Shown piece by piece: positions 4,451 through 19,558 of a stretch of 64,000 nucleotides of DNA. The notes under the pieces are model-generated. The model ran no database searches and was not told where the DNA came from. It saw only the letters and a program-made list of their open reading frames with translations. Origin of the DNA: Crossaster papposus (Eukaryota; Echinodermata; Asteroidea; Velatida; Solasteridae); NCBI GenBank assembly GCA_037893245.1, contig JBAIAA010000119.1:1736001-1800000 (forward strand). Reading direction: 5' to 3'. Position numbers and translations under genes: made by a program. The stretch's first letter is position 1. Every line of letters begins with the position of its first letter.

Positions 4451-5466
4451 TCGCCGTCTGGCGATCGGGTCTACGGAGCTTGCGGGTCTACAGAGGCCAA
4501 GCAATTTGCCCGTTCCGAACAGGCACATTTTGAACTAGCACTGTACTAGTTTCAATTAAATAAAAAACGACTATCATTCTAATAAAGATATCTCTATTAT
4601 AATATAAATTTCACTATTTCTGATAGAGCTATCAGAAATATAGAAATAACCATACAACTCCCAGTCAGTCATTAATACAACATTAAACATGAACGACTTT
4701 CAGATTTCAACAGTTATGATAATAACATTTTAATGTATTTTTATTCTAAATGTCTGGACATGATGCTACAAATGACTGAACTGAACATTTAGTAATCGTG
4801 TCCATACAGTGGTGAAGCTTCTTTATCCCTAACAGTCCTCAATCCTCCAAAATCCATATGATTTTGCACACACCTTAGTTAGGGTTAAAGATCTTGTTTA
4901 TTACATAAACAAACAAAAAAGATACAAAAGCCTTACTTGGCTTGACAATATTGACCAACTTGTTATTCAAGCTTTAACGTCTCTTGATTATGATGTGCAT
5001 CACGAAACGTCATATTTAACATCAATTCAATAACTATAAATAAATTATATCAAACTATAGAATAAGTTTGTTTCTATTCAAAGGTACACACTTAGGATCA
5101 ATTGCTTCTGATGCGTGCTACAAATCTGATCTAGCAAGGTACATTAAAACTGACACATTGATCAGTTTTGTGAATTTGTTTATTTATTATTATCGTGCAT
5201 TGATTATCAACGTGCCAACATTTAAAATACAATTAATTCAAACTGTAAATCTTTCTCTAGCTTAACAATTGCTTAAAATCGTAAGTATGTGCATCACACA
5301 ACATTCGTGTTAAAATGTAAAGTATATTTAAGTTGCGGTTAATTGCTTTAAACCAATTTTCATTTAATTTGACATTTTGGTCACTCATTTTGAACATTGT
5401 CTCAGGAATATGCGTAAATACGGATCAATGTTTTCTAATAATTATAAGCTTATTAATAATGCGGAA

Positions 5467-5612
5467 AGGCGGCATTCAGAGATCGAATTCGTTTTATTTC
5501 AATCAATTTCCAACTGATGTTAACTTATGTGTGTTTGAGTCAAGCACACATCAGACTAATTTAATTAGCATCAGTTTGAAATGTATCTGAATTCGATCTC
5601 TGAATGCTGCCT
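5467..5612. mobile_element. foldback element F, copy 1
   Basis: Arms GGCATTCAGAGATCGAATTC and its complement near 5,590-5,612 flank a ~100-bp core containing GTGTTTGAGTCAAGCACACA. This copy still has the intact target GATGTTAACTTATG, where copy 5 carries a MITE. Confidence 0.7.
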
Positions 5613-6824
5613 TTGGGCAACAGCGGAGACGAATTTGATCTGTAATAACGAAATTAAATGTTTAGATAGATTGACTACATTTAGAAATTAATTGGTAATT
5701 GAATAAATTGGTGCATGCTACAAATCTGATCTAGCAAGGTACATTAACAATGACACATTGATCAGCTCAGTGTAATATCGTGCTGGATATAGTAAAAATG
5801 CCGCACTGTTATACGGGTACTACACTCTATATCACCACGATTACATTCGCGAGTCCACGGAGGCCAAGCAATTAGCCCGTTTCAAACAGGCACATTTTGA
5901 ACTAGCACTGCACTAGTTTCAATTAAATAGAAATAAACTATCATTCCAATAGAGATATCTCTATTGCTAGAATATAAATGTCTATCAGAAATATGTTTTT
6001 ATAACTGCCAGTCGGGTTATTAATACAACTTTAAACATGAACGACTTTCAAATTTCAAAAGTAATTTAATTGTAATTATATTGTATTATTATTCTGAAAG
6101 TCTGGACATGATACTCCCTAAAAATCTAAACTGGACATCTAGTAATCGTGTTCATACATTGGTGAAGGTTCTTTATCTTGTTTATTTATTTTAAAAAGAG
6201 ATACAAAAGCCTTACTTGGCTTGACAATATTGACCAACTTGTTATTTAAAGTGTAATTAATAAAAACTTCTTTTTCTATAGCTTTAACGTCCCTTAAAAT
6301 CGGATGTGCATTACGAAACATTCATTCTAAACGAATAATTGCTTCCAATGTGTTAGTTACGGAAATATTTAACATCAATTCAATAACAGTATAAATAAAC
6401 TATATCGAACTGTAAAATGTGTGTGTTTCTATTCAAAGGTACACACGTAGGATCAATTGCTTTTGATGCATGCTACAAATCTGATCTAGCAAGGAACATT
6501 AAAACTGACACATTGATCAGCTCAGTGGAAAACTGTAACTTTTGTGAATGTTTTTATTTATTATTATCGTGCATTGATTATCAACGTGCTGACATTTAAA
6601 ATACAATTAATTAAAACTGTGAATCTTTCTCTAGCTTAATGATTGCTTAAAATCGTAAGTATGTGCACCACAAATAAAAGTATATTTAAGTTGCGGTTAA
6701 TTTCTTTAAACTAATTTCCATTCAATTTCACATCTTGGTTACTCATTTTGAACATTGTCTCAGGAATATTCGTTAATACGGATCAATTTCTTCTAATAAT
6801 TATAAGCTTATTAATAATGCGGAA

Positions 6825-6944
6825 GGGCGGCATTCAGAGATCGAATTCGTCTTATTTCAATCAATTTCAAACTTATTACACATCAGACTAATTTAATTAG
6901 CATCAGTTTGAAATGTATCTGAATTCGATCTCTGAATGCTGCCT
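6825..6944. mobile_element. foldback element F, copy 2 (core deleted)
   Basis: Same arms as copy 1, but the core has lost about 25 bp around GTGTTTGAGTC. Confidence 0.65.
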
Positions 6945-7199
6945 TTGGGCAACAGCGTAGACGAATTTGATCTGTAATAACGAAATTAAATGTTTAGATA
7001 GATTGACCACATTTTGAAATTAATTGGTAAATGACTGAATTGGTGCATGCTACAAATCTGATTTAGCAAGGTACATTAAGAATGACACATTGATCAGCTC
7101 GGTGAAAAACAAAAAATGTTTTGAAAACCCGTGCTAATAATAACTATTAGGAGTAATATCCATCTTCAAGTTTTCCAAATAATGCCGGTCGTATCACAT

Positions 7200-7430: not shown

Positions 7431-7715
7431 CACCCGCAAATTCGGGAGTTGTCCCTACCCGCGCATTAGTAACTTGTGAAAATACGAGTTATACATCGTA
7501 GTATTATCATTAATAACGTGCACACATTTAAAATACAAATAATTAAAACTGTGAATCTTTTTCTAGCTTAATGATTGCTTAACGTCGTAAGTATATACAT
7601 CATAAAATATTCGTGCTAAAATGTAAAGCCTAATTAATTTGCGGTTAATTGCTTTAAACCAATTTTCATTCAATTTCAAATTTCAAGGTTTTTCTAATAT
7701 AAGCTTAATGCGGAA

Positions 7716-7880
7716 AGGCAGCATTCAGAGATCGATTTCGTCTGATATCAATCAATTTCAAACTTATGTTAAATAAACTAGTCTGGTGTGTGTTTGAGTC
7801 AAGCACACAATTGACAAATGTAATTAGCATAAGTTTGAAATTAACTGATATAAGACGAATTCGATCTCTGAATGCTGCCT
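7716..7880. mobile_element. foldback element F, copy 3
   Basis: Arms GGCAGCATTCAGAGATCGAT and GAATTCGATCTCTGAATGCTGCC in inverted orientation, separated by about 120 bp. Confidence 0.65.
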
Positions 7881-8187
7881 TTGGGCAACAGCGTAGACTC
7901 AGTGTAATGACGAAATAAAAATGTATAAATAGATGGACCACATTTTGAAATTGAATGGTAAATGTATATACATGTATATACAAATTATTCTTACGGTTTT
8001 TTTTAATTCAAAATGCAATGCAACAGATTAGTTAAATGGAGCATTTAAAAGATACATTTAGTTTTTTTATATTGGCACTTCTTAAGCAGTTTTAGATTTC
8101 TTCAGTTTTTATATGCCTGTAAAATATTCCCGATAAACGGTAATATCATCTGGGAGTGAGACTTGCTTTAATAACTGAATTGTTTGA

Positions 8188-11100
8188 GGATAGTGGTGGA
8201 AACTATTTGACTGAATTCAGTGCTGATGACTCAGGTAAATAACTGTGCTGTCTAAGGATGGTGATCATGATTTGAAGCATATACTGTAACATGGTTAATC
8301 TGGGTAGCCATGTTTCTGTGTAAACGATGTAAAAGAAATGTCAACAGAAGCAAGTTTGTTATAAACGCACTGCTCAAATGAGTACAAATGCAGCTTCTAA
8401 TCCAGGGTCATTTAAAACAAATGGATGAACTGCTCGTCAACAGCAGTCACGCAAACCATTAGAAAAAAACCGTACAGTATTGTCAGTGACCATTGCTTTT
8501 GTCAATGCAAACTTTCAGTAGCTTTAGTTAACACATAAACAGTAATGGAAAGAATTCCGTACACAGATAATACTATAATTCAAATTTAGCTTGCAAAACA
8601 TGTAAGCATTTACAATGTACATTGAACATTGAACATTTGTCAGACCAGTCAGGGTTTGTATTATTTAGCATTGCCATTGAAAAGAATGCATGCATTACAT
8701 TTATAGATTATTAATTACTTTGTTTGTAACAATTAGACAATTAGACAATTACTTTGTTTGGTAGCTACTTGTTAAGTTTTTTATGGATACATTTGTATTT
8801 TCAATAGCAATTTTGGCAATATTATATTATGAATTTCTACAGATAGAGCAACGGTTGACAACATTAGCCCCTCTGAGAACCAGTATATAACGGAAGTCGA
8901 CAGTGGTGGTGGAAACTGTTTGACAGAATTTAGCGCTGATGACTCGGGTAATGACCTTAGTGTGGTGCTATGTTTTAGGTTTTATTTTGACACAATTGTC
9001 TCATTCGCTAATGTTTTTCCATCTACAATCTGTAAATGATATGTCAAAATAAAATATGGTTGCATATCCCTTCAAAGCGAGCGAGCATGTTAAATGCTAC
9101 AAGTATTATGTTACAAGTAGTTTGTGCATTGCATTATGTTGTACTGTCGTGGATGTCAACTGTCTGTTATAAATTTATGTTGTTTCAAAGTGTTCTTCAT
9201 ATGAAAGTTCTTAATTTGTCAATCAAACAGTCCGGCACTATATATCACTGTGAGACCAGAAGATGTGAATTTTTTTTTTTTTTTACGGAAAATGTGAAAA
9301 GTACAATAGGTCCCCTTTTCACGTATCACAACAAATGATAATGGGGCCTATTCTTTACTTTACACATTTTTTCGTCAAACATAAGGTTTTTACGTCTTCT
9401 GGCCTCACAGTGTCGGGCAGACATTATGGCTGCTAAATTCACTCATGGGCTGCACTGTACGATGCTGAAAGCAATCTACACACTGAAACACAACATCTCT
9501 GTTCCCAAATAACAAGAACAAACTTCATTGTTAAGAGAAAAGATGACTATAATTTATACTTTACAGCAGCTTTGTGCCTTTATTTAATATTTTCAGAGAA
9601 AGAAAACAATGCAAGGTTGCCTGTCAACAAGAAAAATACCAAAAGAGTACACTTTGAAGACTTGCATGGAAGTACCAGCTCTGATGAAGATGTTGATACA
9701 ACATTATGTCGAGGTGAGATCAATTTAGCTTAATTAAATGCAGTTTCGCTACAGGAAACTACAATATGGATAGATTGCACATTTCAGGTCTTTATTTTAA
9801 TGACTTAATTTTTAGGCACAGCCAGTCGGCTGAAAAAAATCATAAAATCCTGAAAGGAGAATACAAATCCGGCGAAACAAAATAAATGGTGTGTTTATGG
9901 TTACAGCTTGACAAAAATCCATGTACATGTACATGTACATGTATGTAGGTAGGGAAATAAGTTTGTTTTATTGATTTATTTTTCATTGCAGTCAAGTTTT
10001 AAGTGTAGACATTGATTGTTTGCTAAACTTTGATAATTTCTTACAACCCAAAAAAAGTGTAAATAAAATTGTGGATTTGTTAGTTGGTATGATATCACAG
10101 TAATGTATGCATGTAAGCCAGGCAATAATATGCTGTCCGCAAGGGGTTAAGAATGATTCATATTCAGTGAGTAACTGTTGGAACTAAAATTGTGTACATT
10201 CATTTATTCAATAGGATCAACAATCGTCAATTGCATTACTACAACCTTGCAAACAAGATGTTGTGTGCACTACTGTGTTAATTATGTGACCTTTGCTGCT
10301 GCAAGTACTGCTCGAGAAACATTTCGTCTACGTACAAGCCATAAGCAGCGCCAGTGGATACTGGATTACTTCAATAACCACCATGACATTGAGGACGGAT
10401 GTTGCAAGTTCAGGTACCTTATTGGAACAAGTGAGGTTTGCTCCACAGCATGGAGGACAGTGATTGGTATTACTAAGACAAGGTTTTACCAGATCAGGAA
10501 TAAATTTGAAGGTAAACAAAAATTCCTGTTTTCTCTATACTTCGGAATACTGTACCTGTACTGTACAGTATTACAGAGGTCGCAGTTTTCTGTATTCACT
10601 TTAAAGTGTATGCAAATTTACCTAGTCAGGTTCCCTTGTGGTATATGTATTGTAAGATTAAAAATAAATAATGATGATAATTTTAGCCATTACATTGTTA
10701 CTCGCATGAGGATCCCACAAGTTTCAAATATTATTGTGCCCTCTACTCCAACAAAATTACAACTTGCTAGTTGCTACCCAATTTTTTGAAAGTATATGCA
10801 GGGACCTATGATTTGAAAAAAATAAAAATTATATAGAAGTACACAAAACGACTCGTGTGCGCGCACCCCCATCTCCCCCCAAAAGTTGCATTTTTAATGT
10901 CACATTCCCTATTGGTTTACCCAGAGAACTACTGCCACACAGCATGTTATACTTACAAGTCTGCCACATCTCCTTTATACTGTTCTAAAACTTTAATAAA
11001 TGTATTCCTGATACATTGTACTGTACATGTCTTTTTTTATATTGTAGCTGGATCAAGAGAATTTTGCAGACCGAATGCTCTCAAGAAGGGCCTTGTTCAT

Positions 11101-14100
11101 CAGAAGACATCCCAGTCAATGGCTTGGCTGGAGGGTTACGCCAATAAACATGGTGATAAACTACCGGATACTGGCCACCTTCATCTACCCTCCTGCCTCA
11201 CCAAAGGAGATGTTTATAAGATGATGACAGCTGACATGGAGGCCATGGGACAAGAAGGCTGCAAGCAAGCAATGTTTTTCCGGGTCTGGAGAAGAGATTT
11301 TCGGCACATTGCTATACCCAAGGTATTTTACACGTCAACCAAGTAAAAGTTTACATTTGGTGTAGTTAAAGTGAATTTTTAGGGCTCTCGTTTAAGGGGA
11401 TTTTTGTGCTTTTTTGTTCTGCCTGAAGTTTAAAAGTACATATTTTTTTTTTAAATGAAAAAACACCATATGTACAATTTTTAAACAAATGTTTTCTGTT
11501 TGGCTATGGTCCATATTAAACTCACAAACATACGCTATGTATAAACATTTATGCATACGTCTTGCATAACAGATAACCCACAGTGATTTTGCAATATGTT
11601 CTAAAGGAATAACATGTGTACATCAAATTTCATAGATTTGTAAGAACAGTTTCTGTGACAAACTATTCTGTTACACACCGTATGAATACAGATATTTTGA
11701 TTAAATTTTTAGGAGAACAGATTTGCCAAGTGTGACAAGTGCACACTATACAAGACGTCTCTTGAAAAGACTCTGGACAAAGACAAGAGAAAGGCATTGT
11801 ACGAGAAACGTGATCGCCACTTAAGACTCCAAAAGTAAGTGAAGAATTGTTATTTTGTTTTGTAAAGAAAGTTGAAAAGAACAAAACATTGCAAAGAACA
11901 AGTAATATCCAAATTTATAATTTTGGATGAAATACAATTATCAAATTTGCCTTTAGCTATTATTTTATTTTTATTTATTTATTCCATTTCTTTACCCAGG
12001 GTGTGCCCAAACAGTTTAAAACTGGTTTTCATTGGGGCCCTGCATACATCATCAAATACAATAACAGTACATATTATAAATACAAGGATATTACAGGAAT
12101 TCTAAACATTAACTTCTGATTTACGAGATAGGCGAAAACCCGCCAAATAAAAAACCCTTTTAGGTGAAAAATAAGAAGGGGAAATTCCTATCCGGCTCCA
12201 CATTATAGTGGCAACCAAGTTCTAACTCCGTAGATCAGCGCAATTGGCATAATATCTAACACTCAGATGGCATGTCGGAGCTCTGATTTAAATGTGCTTA
12301 ATGAGTCCAATGTTCGCAATTGTTCGGGCAGATTATTCCAAATATTTGCACCACTCACAGCGTAACTTGTGGCGTAGCATTCGTTTTTGGCGAAAGGAAC
12401 TTTCAGTGCCGTGTAAACTGGTTAATCAATAATTTGAGTCAGAAAATGTGAGTTCCCCCCAAAATACCTATTTTTCACCAACCAGATCAGTTATTTTGTA
12501 TTTCCATTAGTCTAGCCTTGTCTGCCCTTAAAAAAATCACCAATCACACAATTGACATTGTGATGTATTGAATGTGTGTACATCATTCTCCATGTACAGT
12601 ACTTAACATTCTAACCTGTACAAGAGAACTAATACAAATAAACATGTATAAGCAACTGTGCATTTATATGACAGACTATTCCGCCTACATGCATACATGT
12701 ACTGGAAACCTATTATTAGGCATTTTAGACAAATAGGAGAGGATAAAAACGACCTCTGCTTGCAACTAATTTAGTAAGAATTTGTAAGTTTTTTCTTTTC
12801 TGGTGGTACACCCATTACATTAATTCACAAGCTAGTGGAAAAAAATGTAAATATGAAGCCATCAAAATGACCTATGGTACCTATATGTAATATAATATAC
12901 CTGTGACACTTATCAACTTCCATTTATTTTCTATTGCAGCAACGAAAGACGCAAATATTATAAACACTCACAGAAAGCGAAATCATCTCCAAATCTGTAC
13001 ATGTCCATTATCATCGATGGCATGGACCAAAAATCCACTCATCTCCCCAAATTCCTGGTTACTCCGAAGTCCCTATGCTCCATGTGGAAACTCCCTACCC
13101 ACATTACAGGCGTTATTGTCCATGGTAGAGGCCAGCACGCATTCATAGACCTAAAGGAGATTCCTCATGACAGCAACAACACCATCAATGTCCTCCTTCA
13201 AACACTAGTCAAATACCCCCGCTTTCTCCCAACACTGTACCTCCAATTGGATAACTGTGGTCGAGAAAACAAGAACATGTATGTGCTGGGATTGTGTGCA
13301 CTTCTGGTTGAGATGGGAATATTTAAGAAGGTAAGTGAGATTAAATAATGGTTTAAAAAAAATCATAAGTAGTAAAAAAGATTCGCTATTCTGATATTCA
13401 ACAAAATTGCTTTTGTACAAACTATTGTGTATGCAAACAGGGTACCAACAAAAGCATGAAATTTGTGCTACTTGAACTTGAAAAAATTGACATTTTACAT
13501 TTATTGTAAATGTTTCTACGAAAACGGAAGTGTTCTCAAAGTATTGGGAAAACAAAAATCGGGTGTAAAAAGTTCCACACCAACATGTATTTACTACAAA
13601 TCAAGTTGTTTTGAACATAAAGAGTTATGTTGTGTTTTGCATTGAATCCAAAACACTGGTCGTCGGTAATTTGGAATTTAATATAACAGTTCGGAATTTA
13701 TGCACAAAACAAATTTAGAGTAAATATCTTAGACATGAACCAGCAGTTCATGAATAATAATGATTTCATCAACAAGATTTGGCATGCTGTTTTTTCTATT
13801 GAAACTTGCAATTTATCAAAAAGAACAGTTAAAATTTATTGAAAATGTAGCAATATTTGGAACATATACTGTAGTTCATGTGAAATCTTTTTCAAACAAC
13901 ATTTTATAATAAGCTTATCAATCAGAATTACTTATAAATGTGATTAAATGTATTTAATTATCATATCATAACAACTAATTAGGGCCGGAGTTATGTTTGG
14001 ACAATGTAGGGAGTCTCAAAAGTCAAAGCAGCTTTATTCTCCTGGGATTGTTGGGTACTATAACATTTTCTCTGTGGGAGCAATGCTGTATGCTCCACAG

Positions 14101-17100
14101 ATTGTTAGTGTTTTCTTAGTGACCAATCCTCGGGGACAAGCCATACTTTATTTTCAGCAAAACAATGTTGTAGATATTTTCTTATCCTGTCAACTTTGGC
14201 ACACGTTAAATATTTCATTATAAACATATAAGTACGCCTGCACAAAAATGGAATTGTATCATTCCATAATTATAATATGCGAGCCACTCAACTTGACTCA
14301 AGTTTGGTTCGTACTTGACAACACTTGCTTGTATTGATACAGTATAGACATGGCAGAAATGGAACAAGAACACTTTTAACCTCGACTCCCGAGGGTGTGT
14401 GCAAAATCATATTGATTTTTGACGATTGTGGACCGTTTGGGTTGATGAACTAAAACCATCCTTAAAATGTGTTTTATTTTTTTCAGGTCAAGACTAGCTT
14501 CCTGATGGTGGGCCATACCCATGAGGATATTGACCAGCTTTTTTCCAGATTCTCAGTGCACATGTGGCGAAATCGTGTGCATACGATGTCACGCCTTCTG
14601 GAATTGCTACCGGGGGCTTACAACAAACCGAACACCACTGCTGAACGTCTTCAGAACACCGTACATTTTCGGGACTGGATTAAACCATGTCTGAACTCAA
14701 TGGCTCAGCACAGCAAACCTCATGTTTTCAAATTCACTTTGAACGAAGTTGGTAAGTATTTTTACAAATAAAATGGCAAATTCAGTTTTTATGCATGCCA
14801 GTCAAAAGACTCAATTAGAAGTATATAAATGGTACCTGTGAAGGTAGACACCAAATTGCGCTGATCTCGAGCTGCTACATAAATGGTCTTGTTGCTGATG
14901 AACATAGATAATTGTATAATAATTGTAAGCAAAATTCAATTGATGTCTGGCTGTGCTCCGTGGTCAGATATAGGGTTGTATTGTGGCTGTCTACATGTCA
15001 TTGACTCGACCATGTTGTACCCCTTTCCTTCGCAATGTATTAGCTTCTCAGCCAATGATGATTATTATTGTTATTATGAACCATTTTGATTTTGTGTGAT
15101 ATGAAATGGATCGACTCTATACGACAACTGTGCAAATGTTGTTGTTTTTTTCGGGTTTTTTAATAAAAAAGGAAAACAATAACTGTCTCAAAACCAGAAA
15201 TAAAGACATATATCATATTACAAAAGTTTAAATTTTTTTTTAGGTGAAGCAGTTATGCACACAAAGAAATGGAGTTCAACTGGTGAGGCATGGTCTCCAT
15301 GTGTAGTAGCTGAGGGGGCACCTTCTAATCTGTTGATATCACATCCAGTTGAAGGTCCACGTGCTGTTCAGAAAGACTTTGCCAAGCTGGACCTTAAGAA
15401 ACTTAAGCATAGCATTCGTAATGCACGAGAATTCCTAGAGGCACCGGAGGTTGAGGAATGGAACAACTTTCTCTTACAACTTGATGGAGAATGCAATGCA
15501 GGTAATACAAATAAAGCTGCTAACCAAATAAATGTATTTGTAAAGGTCTCAATGGGCGTCAATCAATGGGGGTTGAGGTGGGCAAGCATCCCCCATTTAC
15601 ATTTTTTTTATAGAGGGAAGGGAAAGTATATCAAAAGGCCCCATTTTTGGCTGGCCCATAGACAAATGTTTGACTCTTGAGATCATTACTGTGGCACCCT
15701 ATTACCCCGCCTTGATATCAAATAAAATGTCAAAGGTATTTTACAGTGAACTTAATTCTTTCCCTTGAAAAAGTTAGCAGAACACGTCATCATAAAGCAT
15801 CCTAATTTTACAAGTTATCTAGTGTACTCGTAGGCATCCAATTATCATTTAATAATTCAAATTCATAACAATATTAAATGACTTACGTATTGCACAATTG
15901 TATTGGAAGGATTACAAATTATTCATAGTTGTCTTTCTTATCTGGAATACTGGATACTTATGAACATCACTCATTATCTAGTTGCACATGACGCCACTGC
16001 TGATGACGCCACTGCAGATGACGCCACTGCAGATGACGCCACTGCAGATGACGCCACTGCAGATGACGCCACTGCAGATGACGCCACTGCAGATGACGCC
16101 ACTGCAGATGACGCCACTGCAGATGACGCCACTGCAGATGACGCCACTGCAGATGACGCCACTGCAGATGACGCCACTGCAGATGACGCCACTGCAGATG
16201 ACGCCACTGCAGATGACGCCACTGCAGATGACGCCACTGCAGATGACGCCACTGCAGATGACGCCACTGCAGATGACGCCACTGCAGATGACGCCACTGC
16301 AGATGACGCCACTGCAGATGACGCCACTGCAGATGACGCCACTGCAGATGACGCCACTGCAGATGACGCCACTGCAGATGACGCCACTGCAGATGACGCC
16401 ACTGCAGATGACGCCACTGCAGATGACGCCACTGCAGATGACGCCACTGCAGATGACGCCACTGCAGATGACGCCACTGCAGATGACGCCACTGCAGATG
16501 ACGCCACTGCAGATGACGCCACTGCAGATGACGCCACTGCAGATGACGCCACTGCAGATGACGCCACTGCAGATGACGCCACTGCAGATGACGCCACTGC
16601 AGATGACGCCACTGCAGATGACGCCACTGCAGATGACGCCACTGCAGATGAGACACAGATTTCATTTCCACTGTACGATATATTGGCTAACTGCAGAGAG
16701 CAGGAAGGTACATGTAGTACAAGCAATGACCAACAAACAACTAGCATCTTTGCTGAAGATGAGCTATCTGATGATGACCTTCGTCCAGCTAAAGTAAACA
16801 ATATATGTGGTTTGTTCTGACTGACATTGTTTATTGTTTTAATTAATCTAAATTTTTTGTTTTGAATTGTTTAAACAATTTAATTTAAAAATCCCAGCAT
16901 GGTACTCTCCAGGAATTAGGGTTTGTGTTGGAACCAGTGGATTGCCGAGGGAAGGGTGTGTTGACAGTGACACTGGATTTCATTATACCCGCACAGCAAC
17001 ATGTTCCAATTAACAGGAAGCCCTGTCTGTCTATAAGCTTGACTTATGAAGCAAAATTGCAGTGTATTCATTCTTGTTGAATATCTCATATGAAAGTTTA

Positions 17101-17267
17101 TTACTGATCCAACAGTGACCTTTTCAAAACTTGTGGAAAGTAGAAACTTAATGTTCTGATTGGTTCTTTCCATATTTTTCATTTTAAAGGTTCGCCTTGG
17201 AAAACGAAAACGCAAAGGTGCTACCAGCAAAGATAGTGGCAGCAGACGAAAGCAACCAAGACGCTAA
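8188..17267 (+). CDS. DUF7869-type, DDE-transposase-like spliced gene (5' end uncertain)
   Basis: Eleven phase-consistent exons are visible: (about 8,188)-8,234, 8,843-8,947, 9,597-9,713, 10,215-10,511, 11,048-11,322, 11,713-11,834, 12,940-13,330, 14,487-14,751, 15,244-15,501, 15,982-16,793 and 17,190-17,267 (TAA). All have AG/GT borders and matching phases, about 920 residues in total. The order is an acidic N-terminus; a KxRQWILDYFNNHHD region; a KCDKCTLY cysteine pair; then DGMDQK, LDNCGRENKN and GHTHEDIDQLFSR. These three motifs match the DUF7869 family as I know it and look like a DDE catalytic triad. The penultimate exon is mostly DDATA repeats, and the last exon encodes a basic, NLS-like tail (GKRKRK and SRRKQPRR). 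The first two exons share a DSGG-N-LTEFSADDS sequence, so they look like an exon duplication. No start codon is identified, because duplicated repeat DNA abuts exon 1 at about 8,187. The function (domesticated protein or transposase) is not shown; no terminal repeats were found around it. Confidence 0.75.
9230..9418. mobile_element. foldback MITE in an intron
   Basis: Inverted arms CACTGTGAGACCAGAAGA (near 9,246) and CTTCTGGCCTCACAGTG (ending near 9,413), with an inner pair AATAGGTCCCC and GGGGCCTATT. The element is about 190 bp and non-coding. It sits in the intron between the exons at 8,843 and 9,597. Confidence 0.65.
12263..12410 (-). pseudogene. LINE reverse-transcriptase C-terminal fragment, antisense in an intron
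   Basis: The minus strand reads a short open frame ending in TGA at 12,263. It contains YAVSGANIWNNLPEQLR followed by LSTFKSELRHAI. This is the usual C-terminus of CR1/L2/RTE-like reverse transcriptases (WN.LP..LR then FK..L). It lies in the intron between 11,834 and 12,940 and is truncated upstream. Confidence 0.65.
15990..16649 (+). repeat. 15-bp coding minisatellite, 44 copies (DDATA)
   Basis: Forty-four copies of GACGCCACTGCAGAT lie head to tail. All are identical except the first, which has GCT for GCA. The unit is a multiple of three, so five of the six frames stay open across the array. Splice phase from the upstream exon (ends 15,501, phase 1) selects the frame that reads DATAD. The array sits inside the exon 15,982-16,793, with acceptor CATTATCTAG just before it. 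Confidence 0.95.
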
Positions 17268-18226
17268 CCCATCAGAAACAACTTAGTAATATGCAGGCCT
17301 ACCAGTAGTTTTTGCCAAAGTTTACTGTATTCAAGATTGGATTGTGCGCGTCGCGTAATGTTTTCACACAGTGCGCCTGCTTTCGATAAAATTGGGCCAA
17401 ACAAAATAAATTGTGTGTTTACGGTAACGGCTTTAAACAAATACAGGTAGGTAGATAGTAGGGCTAGTAGATAGGAAAATAATTATTATGTTGTTATTTC
17501 AGTCGAGTTTTAATACGTTTGGTAATTACTCCAAAAATTAATGGCAATAACAACTTACTTGGTAAGAAGTACAGCAGCTTTGGATAGTACATGTATAATG
17601 CATTTTTAGAAACTTTTCACTTCGAAGTACTGCGGTTATGAAAAAATATATCACTTTTTATCCCCAAAAATTTGAATCTGAGAAGCGTTACTGCAGTGAC
17701 GTTTCTCAGACTGTGTATTCCAATGCAGATTATTTTTCCTGCGTGAACATAACCGCTCCAGATTTTCGGCAATATCTCAAAATCGCTACCACCTTTTGAA
17801 ATGAAATTTGTAAAGTTTAGTTTTATGGTATATATCTATAACTATATAGGATTGAAACAAACAATGGGTTCCAATTACCAAACGTGTACGATCCCTTTAA
17901 TGTTACTTTAAACGATATTTATGAAGTTTAGTTATGAACTGAAACAATTTGGCCTGTGAAAACTTAGTATGGCCTTCATGGAAATTTATCTTGTATTAAG
18001 GTGGTAAAAATTGATAATATGTATATGTAATCACTGTATGGGTTACATCAACTGTTAACTTTAACTGTTAAAAGAATGTGTTCACCTTTAAAAGCTTGAC
18101 ACTCGTCCTGTGAAATGTTTATTATCCTGTTATATAGTATGACTATGCTATGAAATTTTGTGTAATTAATCAAGGCCCCCCCCCCCCCCCCCACAGAAAA
18201 GCTAAGGTCAGGGGGAAAATCTAAAT
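17268..18226. other. 3' flank of the DUF7869-like gene; no further gene seen
   Basis: An AATAAA at about 17,405 is a possible polyadenylation signal for the upstream gene. The rest is AT-rich sequence with a C run near 18,178-18,192 just before the satellite. No ORF or RNA gene is supported. Confidence 0.4.
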
Positions 18227-18900
18227 ACCTAACTCTGACACTGATGGTGGCTTGCTGGGGATGGGAGATAATATTATCCCAAATACCAGGCTTTGAGACT
18301 GATGGTAGCTTGCTCGGGATGGCAGATAATATTATCCCAAATACCAGGCTCTGACACTGACGGTGGCTTGCTCGGCATGGGAGATAATATTATCCCAAAT
18401 ACCAGGCTCTGACACTGATGGTGGCTTGCTCGGCATGGGAGATAATATTATCCCAAATACCAGGCTCTGACACTGATGGTGGCTTGCTCGGGTTGGGAGA
18501 TAATATTATCCCAAATACCAGGCTCTTACACTGATGGTGGCTTGCTCGGGATGGCAGATAATATTATCCCAAATACCAGGCTCTGACACTGATGGTGGCT
18601 TGTTCGACATGTGAGAAAATATTATCCCAAATACCAGGCTCTTACACTGATGGTGGCTTGCTCGACATGGAAGATAATATTATCCCAAATACCAGGCTCT
18701 GACACTGATGGTGGCTTGCTCGGCATGTGAGAAAATATTATCTCAAATACCAGGCTCTGAACCTAATGGTGGCTTGCTCGACATGGGAGATAATATCCCA
18801 AATACCAGGCTCTGACAAAAATGGTGGCTTGCTTGGCACAGGAGATAACATCCCAAATATTAACCTCCAAAACTGATGGTGGCTTGCTTGGCATGGGTTG
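18227..18900. repeat. 58-bp satellite, about 11 copies
   Basis: Unit of about 58 bp: TACCAGGCTCTGACACTGAT, GGTGGCTTGCTCGGCATGGG and AGATAATATTATCCCAAA. Each unit carries the self-complementary GATAATATTATC. The last two copies near 18,800-18,880 are shorter and more diverged, as expected at an array edge. Confidence 0.9.
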
Positions 18901-19558
18901 GCTGGAGGTGGAAAGTGAAGTCAACCCTGAGCAAATAATTATTTTGATTTTATAATGTACCTCAAAGCGTTTTATATTTAAATAAATACAAAGACTTCTG
19001 TGGATAACATTTATTTTTGGTATAGTATAACAATTTACCAAAAAACACCATTTTGGGAAAAAAATGTGAACTAATTTAGTTCACTTTGAAAGTATTTGCT
19101 GTTTCAAGTAGTATTTGCAATGACTGTCGTTTCCAGCCCGTTTGCTTTACTCCTTAAACAAGAGGACATTAGGGGTGATGCTTTTTCAGAGGTGGAGAAA
19201 AAGAATGACACTGTAATGTATAATTGTTGAGAGTGTAGAATTCAAGTTAACAGAAATCTTGGGGTGATCATGTGCCCCCCCCCCCAATCTCCAGTACAGT
19301 CTTTGAAGTTGTGCTGCAATGTCAGCCCTTATATTGGATAAACTGTAAACATTTATGTTGAATGCCCTAAGATATTCCTTGTAGTATATTTGTGTATTAA
19401 AATATTCCTGTTAACTTGCATTTTTAAGCTCAATCTATTAAATTAGGCTATGAAAAATAAAGCAATGGGACAACTTTGCAAGTAATATTGTGGTGCTTTT
19501 TTAAACCCCAAGAAATATGATCTATCTTTGAATTGAGATTTCCAAAGATTTGAGAGAT
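18901..19558. other. intergenic, nothing recognised
   Basis: AT-rich DNA with a short C run at about 19,276. It is downstream of the minus-strand gene ending at 19,559. I see no convincing polyadenylation signal on that strand here. Confidence 0.4.

Follow-up and report, generated by a model that had tools for sequence, protein, structure and literature searches.

A 64,000-nucleotide stretch of the Crossaster papposus genome (assembly GCA_037893245.1, contig JBAIAA010000119.1, positions 1,736,001 to 1,800,000; hereafter the window) contains a multi-exon gene of the DUF7869 family, and this gene very probably lies in a left-truncated copy of a giant, two-gene cut-and-paste transposon of the DDE/D type that was recently active. 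Fuller copies on contigs C18 and C572 have both ends, with matching terminal inverted repeats (TIRs), inverted arrays of a 58-bp minisatellite, and 4-bp target site duplications (TSDs), and near-identical copies occur in the genome. The original prediction, made from the window sequence alone, had left the choice between a domesticated gene and an intron-bearing transposon. The transposon is favored by the number of copies, their common ends, the TIRs, and the 4-bp TSDs; domestication is unsupported, since the genome holds more than one copy and the one in the window is truncated.

The right end of the element is fixed at window position 19103. Among 14 genome places matching positions 18940-19115, five end exactly at 19103, six (the window included) keep the window flank throughout, two extend 7 bases further over a chance likeness (AGTA), and the one on C507 is cut earlier. 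Two features mark this end:

18223-18897, no strand assigned: 58-bp minisatellite array beside the right end; arrays of this kind have the opposite orientation at the left ends of C18, C507, C572, and C19

19077-19103, minus strand: right terminal inverted repeat, AACAGCAAATACTTTCAAAGTGAACTA on that strand, used as the 27-base search pattern

With up to three mismatches allowed, the 27-base terminal pattern was found at 20 places in the genome (counting the window's own), and its reversed control at none. Left ends were recovered in C18, C507, C572, and C19; those of C572, C507, and C19 are clean and begin AACAGCAAATACTTTCAATGTGAACTA, while in C18, about 37 kb further upstream, the minisatellite appears inverted and the sequence there mirrors the right end. 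The gene had originally been described as having no transposon ends, yet the right end, TIR and minisatellite included, is in the window and the left end alone is missing; no inverted repeats were seen around the gene because this copy has lost its left end.

The C572 copy runs from 214714 to 246252 (31,539 bp), with TIRs matching at 26 of 27 bases and GTAT on both sides, and the C18 copy from 215950 to 255544 (39,595 bp), with AATA on both sides, provided that two bases are missing from its left end relative to the other copies. A 4-bp TSD is thus present in both of the copies that have two ends. The C18 element was inserted in a satellite, which offers a paralogous empty site: with zero to nine bases removed, the joined flanks scored highest against neighboring monomers when exactly four were taken out (36 and 39, next best 34 and 37), which supports a 4-bp duplication. 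A non-long-terminal-repeat retrotransposon or a Helitron, either of which would fit 5′ truncation at varying points and a fixed right end bearing a hairpin, is ruled out by the left ends, TIRs, and TSDs. Further terminal repeats, perfect but with no partner seen, lie at C343:1787509-1787535, C343:1797148-1797174, and C456:1070187-1070213, the two on C343 facing the same direction 9.6 kb apart; these could be non-autonomous or broken copies.

The window copy and its gene have the following parts:

8185-19103, plus strand: 5′-truncated transposon copy, delimited by alignments of C18, C507, C572, and C890, with a common right end and differing flanks

8185-8234, plus strand: remnant of exon 3, cut at 8185 and without an acceptor; the full exon is present in C18

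8843-8947, plus strand: exon with AG/GT borders, phase matched

9597-9713, plus strand: exon encoding the acidic N-terminal region

10215-10511, plus strand: exon

11048-11322, plus strand: exon

11713-11834, plus strand: exon with the cysteine pair CDKC

12940-13330, plus strand: exon with conserved aspartates 1 (codon 13016-13018) and 2 (codon 13250-13252)

14487-14751, plus strand: exon with the GHTHEDID motif and the third conserved aspartate (codon 14532-14534)

15244-15501, plus strand: exon

15982-16793, plus strand: exon with an in-frame 15-bp minisatellite (DDATA repeats), 812 bases in the window copy

17190-17267, plus strand: last exon, with basic tail and stop

These eleven coding stretches between 8185 and 17267 splice into one open frame ending in TAA at 17267, with phases that match across the gene and AG/GT borders at all ten introns, in agreement with the roughly 11 phase-matched exons first proposed. 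The three motifs, cysteine pair, acidic repeat exon, and basic tail described at that time are likewise all present in the window. So is the DUF7869-type domain: Pfam detects a single family in the window protein, DUF7869 (PF25273; E-value 6.7e-74, 248.1 bits vs. a cut-off of 26, for a 626-residue query with the repeat exon left out), to which the gene belongs by the curated cut-off and whose name carries no function. The match spans the second and third motifs, and the first aspartate lies ahead of it. The gene is not the intact one it was taken for, however. Its first stretch is a remnant preceded by TT rather than an AG acceptor, and the cut at 8185 leaves the frame without a start codon. 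By comparison, the plus-strand DUF7869 gene of C18 opens with ATG, and its 13 exons hold 833 codons up to the stop; beyond the window gene it has two upstream exons and a complete exon 3.

Copies of this gene are numerous. A codon pattern for GHTHEDIDQ was found at 29 places in the 1.02-Gb genome and its reversed control at none; nine of the 29, the window's own counted, share an identical 26 bases, the nearest other lying 115 kb away on the same contig. No second GHTHEDIDQ copy was found within the 64-kb window, so the earlier statement that it holds no second copy is correct there; elsewhere in the genome, eight other copies are 97-99.9% identical to the window over their main aligned stretches, several of them in different flanks. 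PF25273 matches at least 177 exon-sized places in this genome vs. none in 14 control genomes. Genome copy number had been proposed as a check on domestication, and the outcome is many copies with shared ends instead of one. A host gene domesticated as a nuclease or DNA-binding protein would suit the intron-rich open frame seen in the window, but such near-identical copies, shared ends, TSDs where testable, and a window copy without a start make this scarcely credible.

Read exon by exon, the eight other copies have exon lengths equal to those of the window, except for the DDATA-repeat exon, which measures 227-677 bases in them vs. 812 in the window and changes always in multiples of 15. This coding minisatellite of 15 bp varies from about 4 to 43 units among copies with the frame unbroken. 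From 8185 onward, seven of the eight copies have no early stop, and the copy on C890 has one.

Four copies (C18, C507, C572, and C890) align from exactly 8185 and extend upstream with continuing coding sequence, which identifies the window copy as 5′-truncated; the C890 copy is truncated too, at a point between where exons 1 and 2 would lie. Two other copies read on C119 and two on C779 share the window flank across 8185, TT again preceding the equivalent position, and are therefore duplicates of one truncated insertion. This truncated element is found three times on C119 (at about 1750, 1865, and 1976 kb) and three times on C779 (at about 47, 138, and 233 kb, the one at 138 kb known from matches alone), with spacings of about 91-115 kb. 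The common flanks suggest a recent large segmental duplication. By itself the window copy, lacking the left end and gene start, should be immobile, and it has been multiplied along with its surroundings on C119 and C779.

Could segmental duplication, or carriage with satellite DNA, account for the whole family without any transposition? The C119 and C779 copies, with the window's flank and truncation point, fit this explanation, as do the large satellite-like arrays carried by the copies that have left ends. It is already contradicted for C18 and C572, whose flanks differ on both sides while their ends match and are bordered by 4-bp duplications, and holds for the window's own extra copies; as an account of the family we regard it as very improbable. 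Upstream of the element, window positions 4482-7096 and 7706-7964 contain diverged repeat units, and the stretch at 7714-7882 also matches in inverted orientation in neighboring copies and by eye is near-palindromic and resembles a miniature inverted-repeat transposable element.

The interior of the C18 copy also holds arrays whose repeat units measure 179 and 370 bp. A second gene lies there on the minus strand; its nine exons encode 629 amino acids without an early stop, a frame read in C18 only. Such arrays were seen within transposon copies at L025 (743-8923) and L027 (4294-8969), as satellite-like DNA carried along. Relatives of the second gene about 60% identical adjoin a further DUF7869 family (C16 type), and weak relatives (26%, E-value 8e-4) lie 5.8-7.2 kb from a third. 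Gene pairs were compared on the 16 contigs common to the listed DUF7869 and second-gene matches, with 17 second-gene places. Among the matches listed, 14 of 16 pairs at most 50 kb apart are divergent (three in the window family, seven of C16 type, and four of C409 type); because members of one family do not count as independent, the arrangement stands for three families rather than fourteen events. On C890 the two genes lie 107 kb from each other. Also among the matches listed are second-gene matches without DUF7869 on the contig (e.g., C19, C25, C1186, C169, C157, and C414) and third-family DUF7869 places without a second-gene match nearby (C37, and C18 at 466 kb).

For the second protein, one weak match was obtained, to PHROG 723, annotated as a ParB-like partition protein (E-value 0.084), while the ParB families in Pfam or NCBIfam gave none. 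Nothing in NCBIfam, phages, or plasmids matched the gene (the main exon being the query for phages and plasmids), it matches no transposase family, and sequence searches of the PDB returned nothing significant (best E-value 1.1; a chaperonin at 0.04 in another search). The pieces used in the family, relative, and PHROG searches and in the one that gave the chaperonin differ from the final gene model at three residues in the second part. Likenesses to a Pfam head-tail family (E-value 0.0079, or 0.0025 with one exon; below cut-off) and to a PHROGs prohead family (E-value 0.0042) were rejected as noise. A likeness of the C-terminal half to a degenerate DNA methyltransferase was considered, but no search supports it. 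Beyond the two genes, ten further frames of at least 85 amino acids were found in the non-array parts surveyed, outside the first-gene introns and the second-gene stretch; nine had no Pfam match at an E-value of 0.1 and one had a match at 0.066, below cut-off.

Within this element, the DUF7869 protein is probably the catalyst of transposition, a judgment that draws on conserved acidic residues. The three aspartates of the window frame, D348, D426, and D468, are spaced 77 and 41 residues apart (D-77-D-41-D), and in the distant paralogue C833 the spacing is 78 and 41. Across distant families, all eight alignment rows covering the second aspartate keep it, as do seven of seven for GHT and the third and three of three for the first (MAFFT alignment of ten rows, two of them 98% identical, counted by eye). 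Since the glutamate of GHTHED is not conserved, the third residue of the proposed triad is an aspartate. A distant DUF7869 branch with its domain in one exon (DNCSGQNKN, GHTKFxPD) is also multi-copy in this genome, with some frames open (L050-L054 and L056). No relative of the DUF7869 domain was found in viral contigs. A PDB hit of DUF7869 (E-value 0.0041) is a designed repeat protein with no stretch passing alone, and was set aside as noise.

Constraint on the protein is visible between families. Over 615 aligned coding bases, the window family and the C16 type differ at 110.5 of 131.8 synonymous sites, i.e., at saturation, with a nonsynonymous divergence (dN) of 0.165, which points to strong constraint on the protein.

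Several observations weigh against this interpretation. The TSDs come from two copies only, and that of C18 depends on its left end having lost two bases. The DDE-like triad originally proposed fits with how the motifs are conserved and spaced in distant paralogues, but the fold prediction suggested as its test, run twice (on the single-exon paralogue C833, with ten rows, two of them window exons), gave low-confidence models that do not establish an RNase H fold, with a mean pLDDT (predicted local distance difference test) of 42.0 and 42.8. Foldseek returned no match at an E-value of 0.001 or below (none of 91 and none of 209 hits up to an E-value of 10), an Argonaute appearing only at 0.51. 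The low-confidence C833 model reads strand, strand, helix, strand ending in the second aspartate, helix, strand, and a helix starting near the third; this order is the one an RNase H core requires, but no strand was modeled at the first aspartate (mean pLDDT 42), which in C833 was itself matched by eye and is placed two columns off by MAFFT. A DDE family of Pfam (PF07592) matches one of ten DUF7869 rows at an E-value of 0.014, which is below cut-off and does not surpass the noise match to DUF6713 (0.011), and PDB searches by sequence found no DUF7869 relative. Within the family, selection is poorly measurable because only 19 of 1878 sites vary, and the differences between the truncated and intact lineages are mostly amino-acid changes, although numbers are small; such changes are as expected of copies that would no longer be selected. 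For the companion gene, an internal deletion in C572 takes out its first exon, and the pairs on C1192 and C359, where the second-gene fragments are short and broken, have the same direction.

In a rival division of labor, the transposon is real but the DUF7869 gene is cargo or accessory, catalysis being supplied by the second gene or by a transposase acting in trans. The low-confidence models without a significant RNase H match, the frequent company of the second gene, and the definition of ends for the window's DUF7869 family alone would fit such an arrangement. We nevertheless consider it unlikely, given that the spacing of three acidic residues is kept across distant DUF7869 families, that the second gene matches no transposase family, and that the ten further frames offered nine blanks and the single weak match reported above.

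With DUF7869 as the transposase, the three aspartates would form a DDE/D-type triad in an RNase H-type core, and the protein would bind the terminal repeats and perhaps the 58-bp arrays as well, excise the element, and reinsert it where the target is cut with a 4-bp stagger, the proposed source of the 4-bp duplications. The second protein, possibly ParB-like, may act as a DNA-binding or regulatory partner. The TIRs at both ends of C18 and C572 and the fixed 4-bp TSD are those of cut-and-paste (TIR-type) transposons, and the undescribed mechanism once envisaged for this element is not needed.

Among described transposon groups, one Sola2 group is reported to have an AT-rich 4-bp TSD (AWWT) and a transposase of 888 amino acids (PMC3627910); the 4-bp length of the TSD is in common. 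For Kolobok, the literature gives a TTAA-specific 4-bp TSD and termini of the form 5′-RR..YY-3′, some KolobokP TSDs being other sequences of 3-5 bp, and describes KolobokP as 4-5 kb long with a second protein-coding part for a nuclease (PMC9587614). The AA..TT termini of our element fit RR..YY and its TSD is also 4 bp, but the TSDs are AATA and GTAT rather than TTAA and no long terminal direct repeats were noted in it. The C/DxxH feature of Kolobok, hAT, P, MuDR, and Dada is absent from the 43 residues from the second to the third aspartate. The same TSDs rule out piggyBac, for which TTAA is given (PMC9587614). KDZ DNA transposons (Zisupton, Dileera, and Kyakuja) may carry accessory genes, and a Zisupton TSD of 8 bp is stated (PMC12730594), against 4 bp here, which excludes Zisupton. 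Chapaev/CMC was rejected on termini that begin AACAGC and not 5′-CAC and on the lack of CxxC from the second to the third aspartate (PMC4079192, PMC12730594), and Ginger on the same termini, which are not TGTNR, together with a Pfam result of DUF7869 and no integrase-type transposase (PMC2836005). Among giant DNA elements, a review lists Polintons reaching 40 kb, Teratorn, and enlarged En/Spm (PMC6431247), the size class of our roughly 40-kb element; differing from these, its scanned frames had no Pfam match to a polymerase, ATPase, or capsid, and two multi-exon genes are present. No paper naming DUF7869 turned up, and titles and abstract openings yielded no literature on DUF7869 transposons, with most subscription papers and Repbase outside the scope of that search.

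These results link DUF7869 to a transposon that has ends and TSDs, and give a Pfam family of no known function a testable role, one of its genes lying inside a transposon with defined ends. An apparently intact single copy in one window needs a whole-genome check. Tentatively, and with somewhat less than even confidence, we propose that DUF7869 is the hallmark of a eukaryotic DNA transposon superfamily not yet named, whose members would use a D-D-D transposase and duplicate 4 bp of target. Its giants, up to about 40 kb long, would move a 13-exon transposase gene and a conserved, divergent, ParB-like partner, both enclosed by inverted minisatellite ends. At about 40 kb and with two multi-exon genes, the cut-and-paste transposon described here reaches the size given for the largest Polintons in the review cited (PMC6431247), and its companion gene raises the question of how elements of this length are brought together and cut. 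If our proposal is true, the partner and the minisatellite arrays may be what makes bridging and cutting possible at this size.

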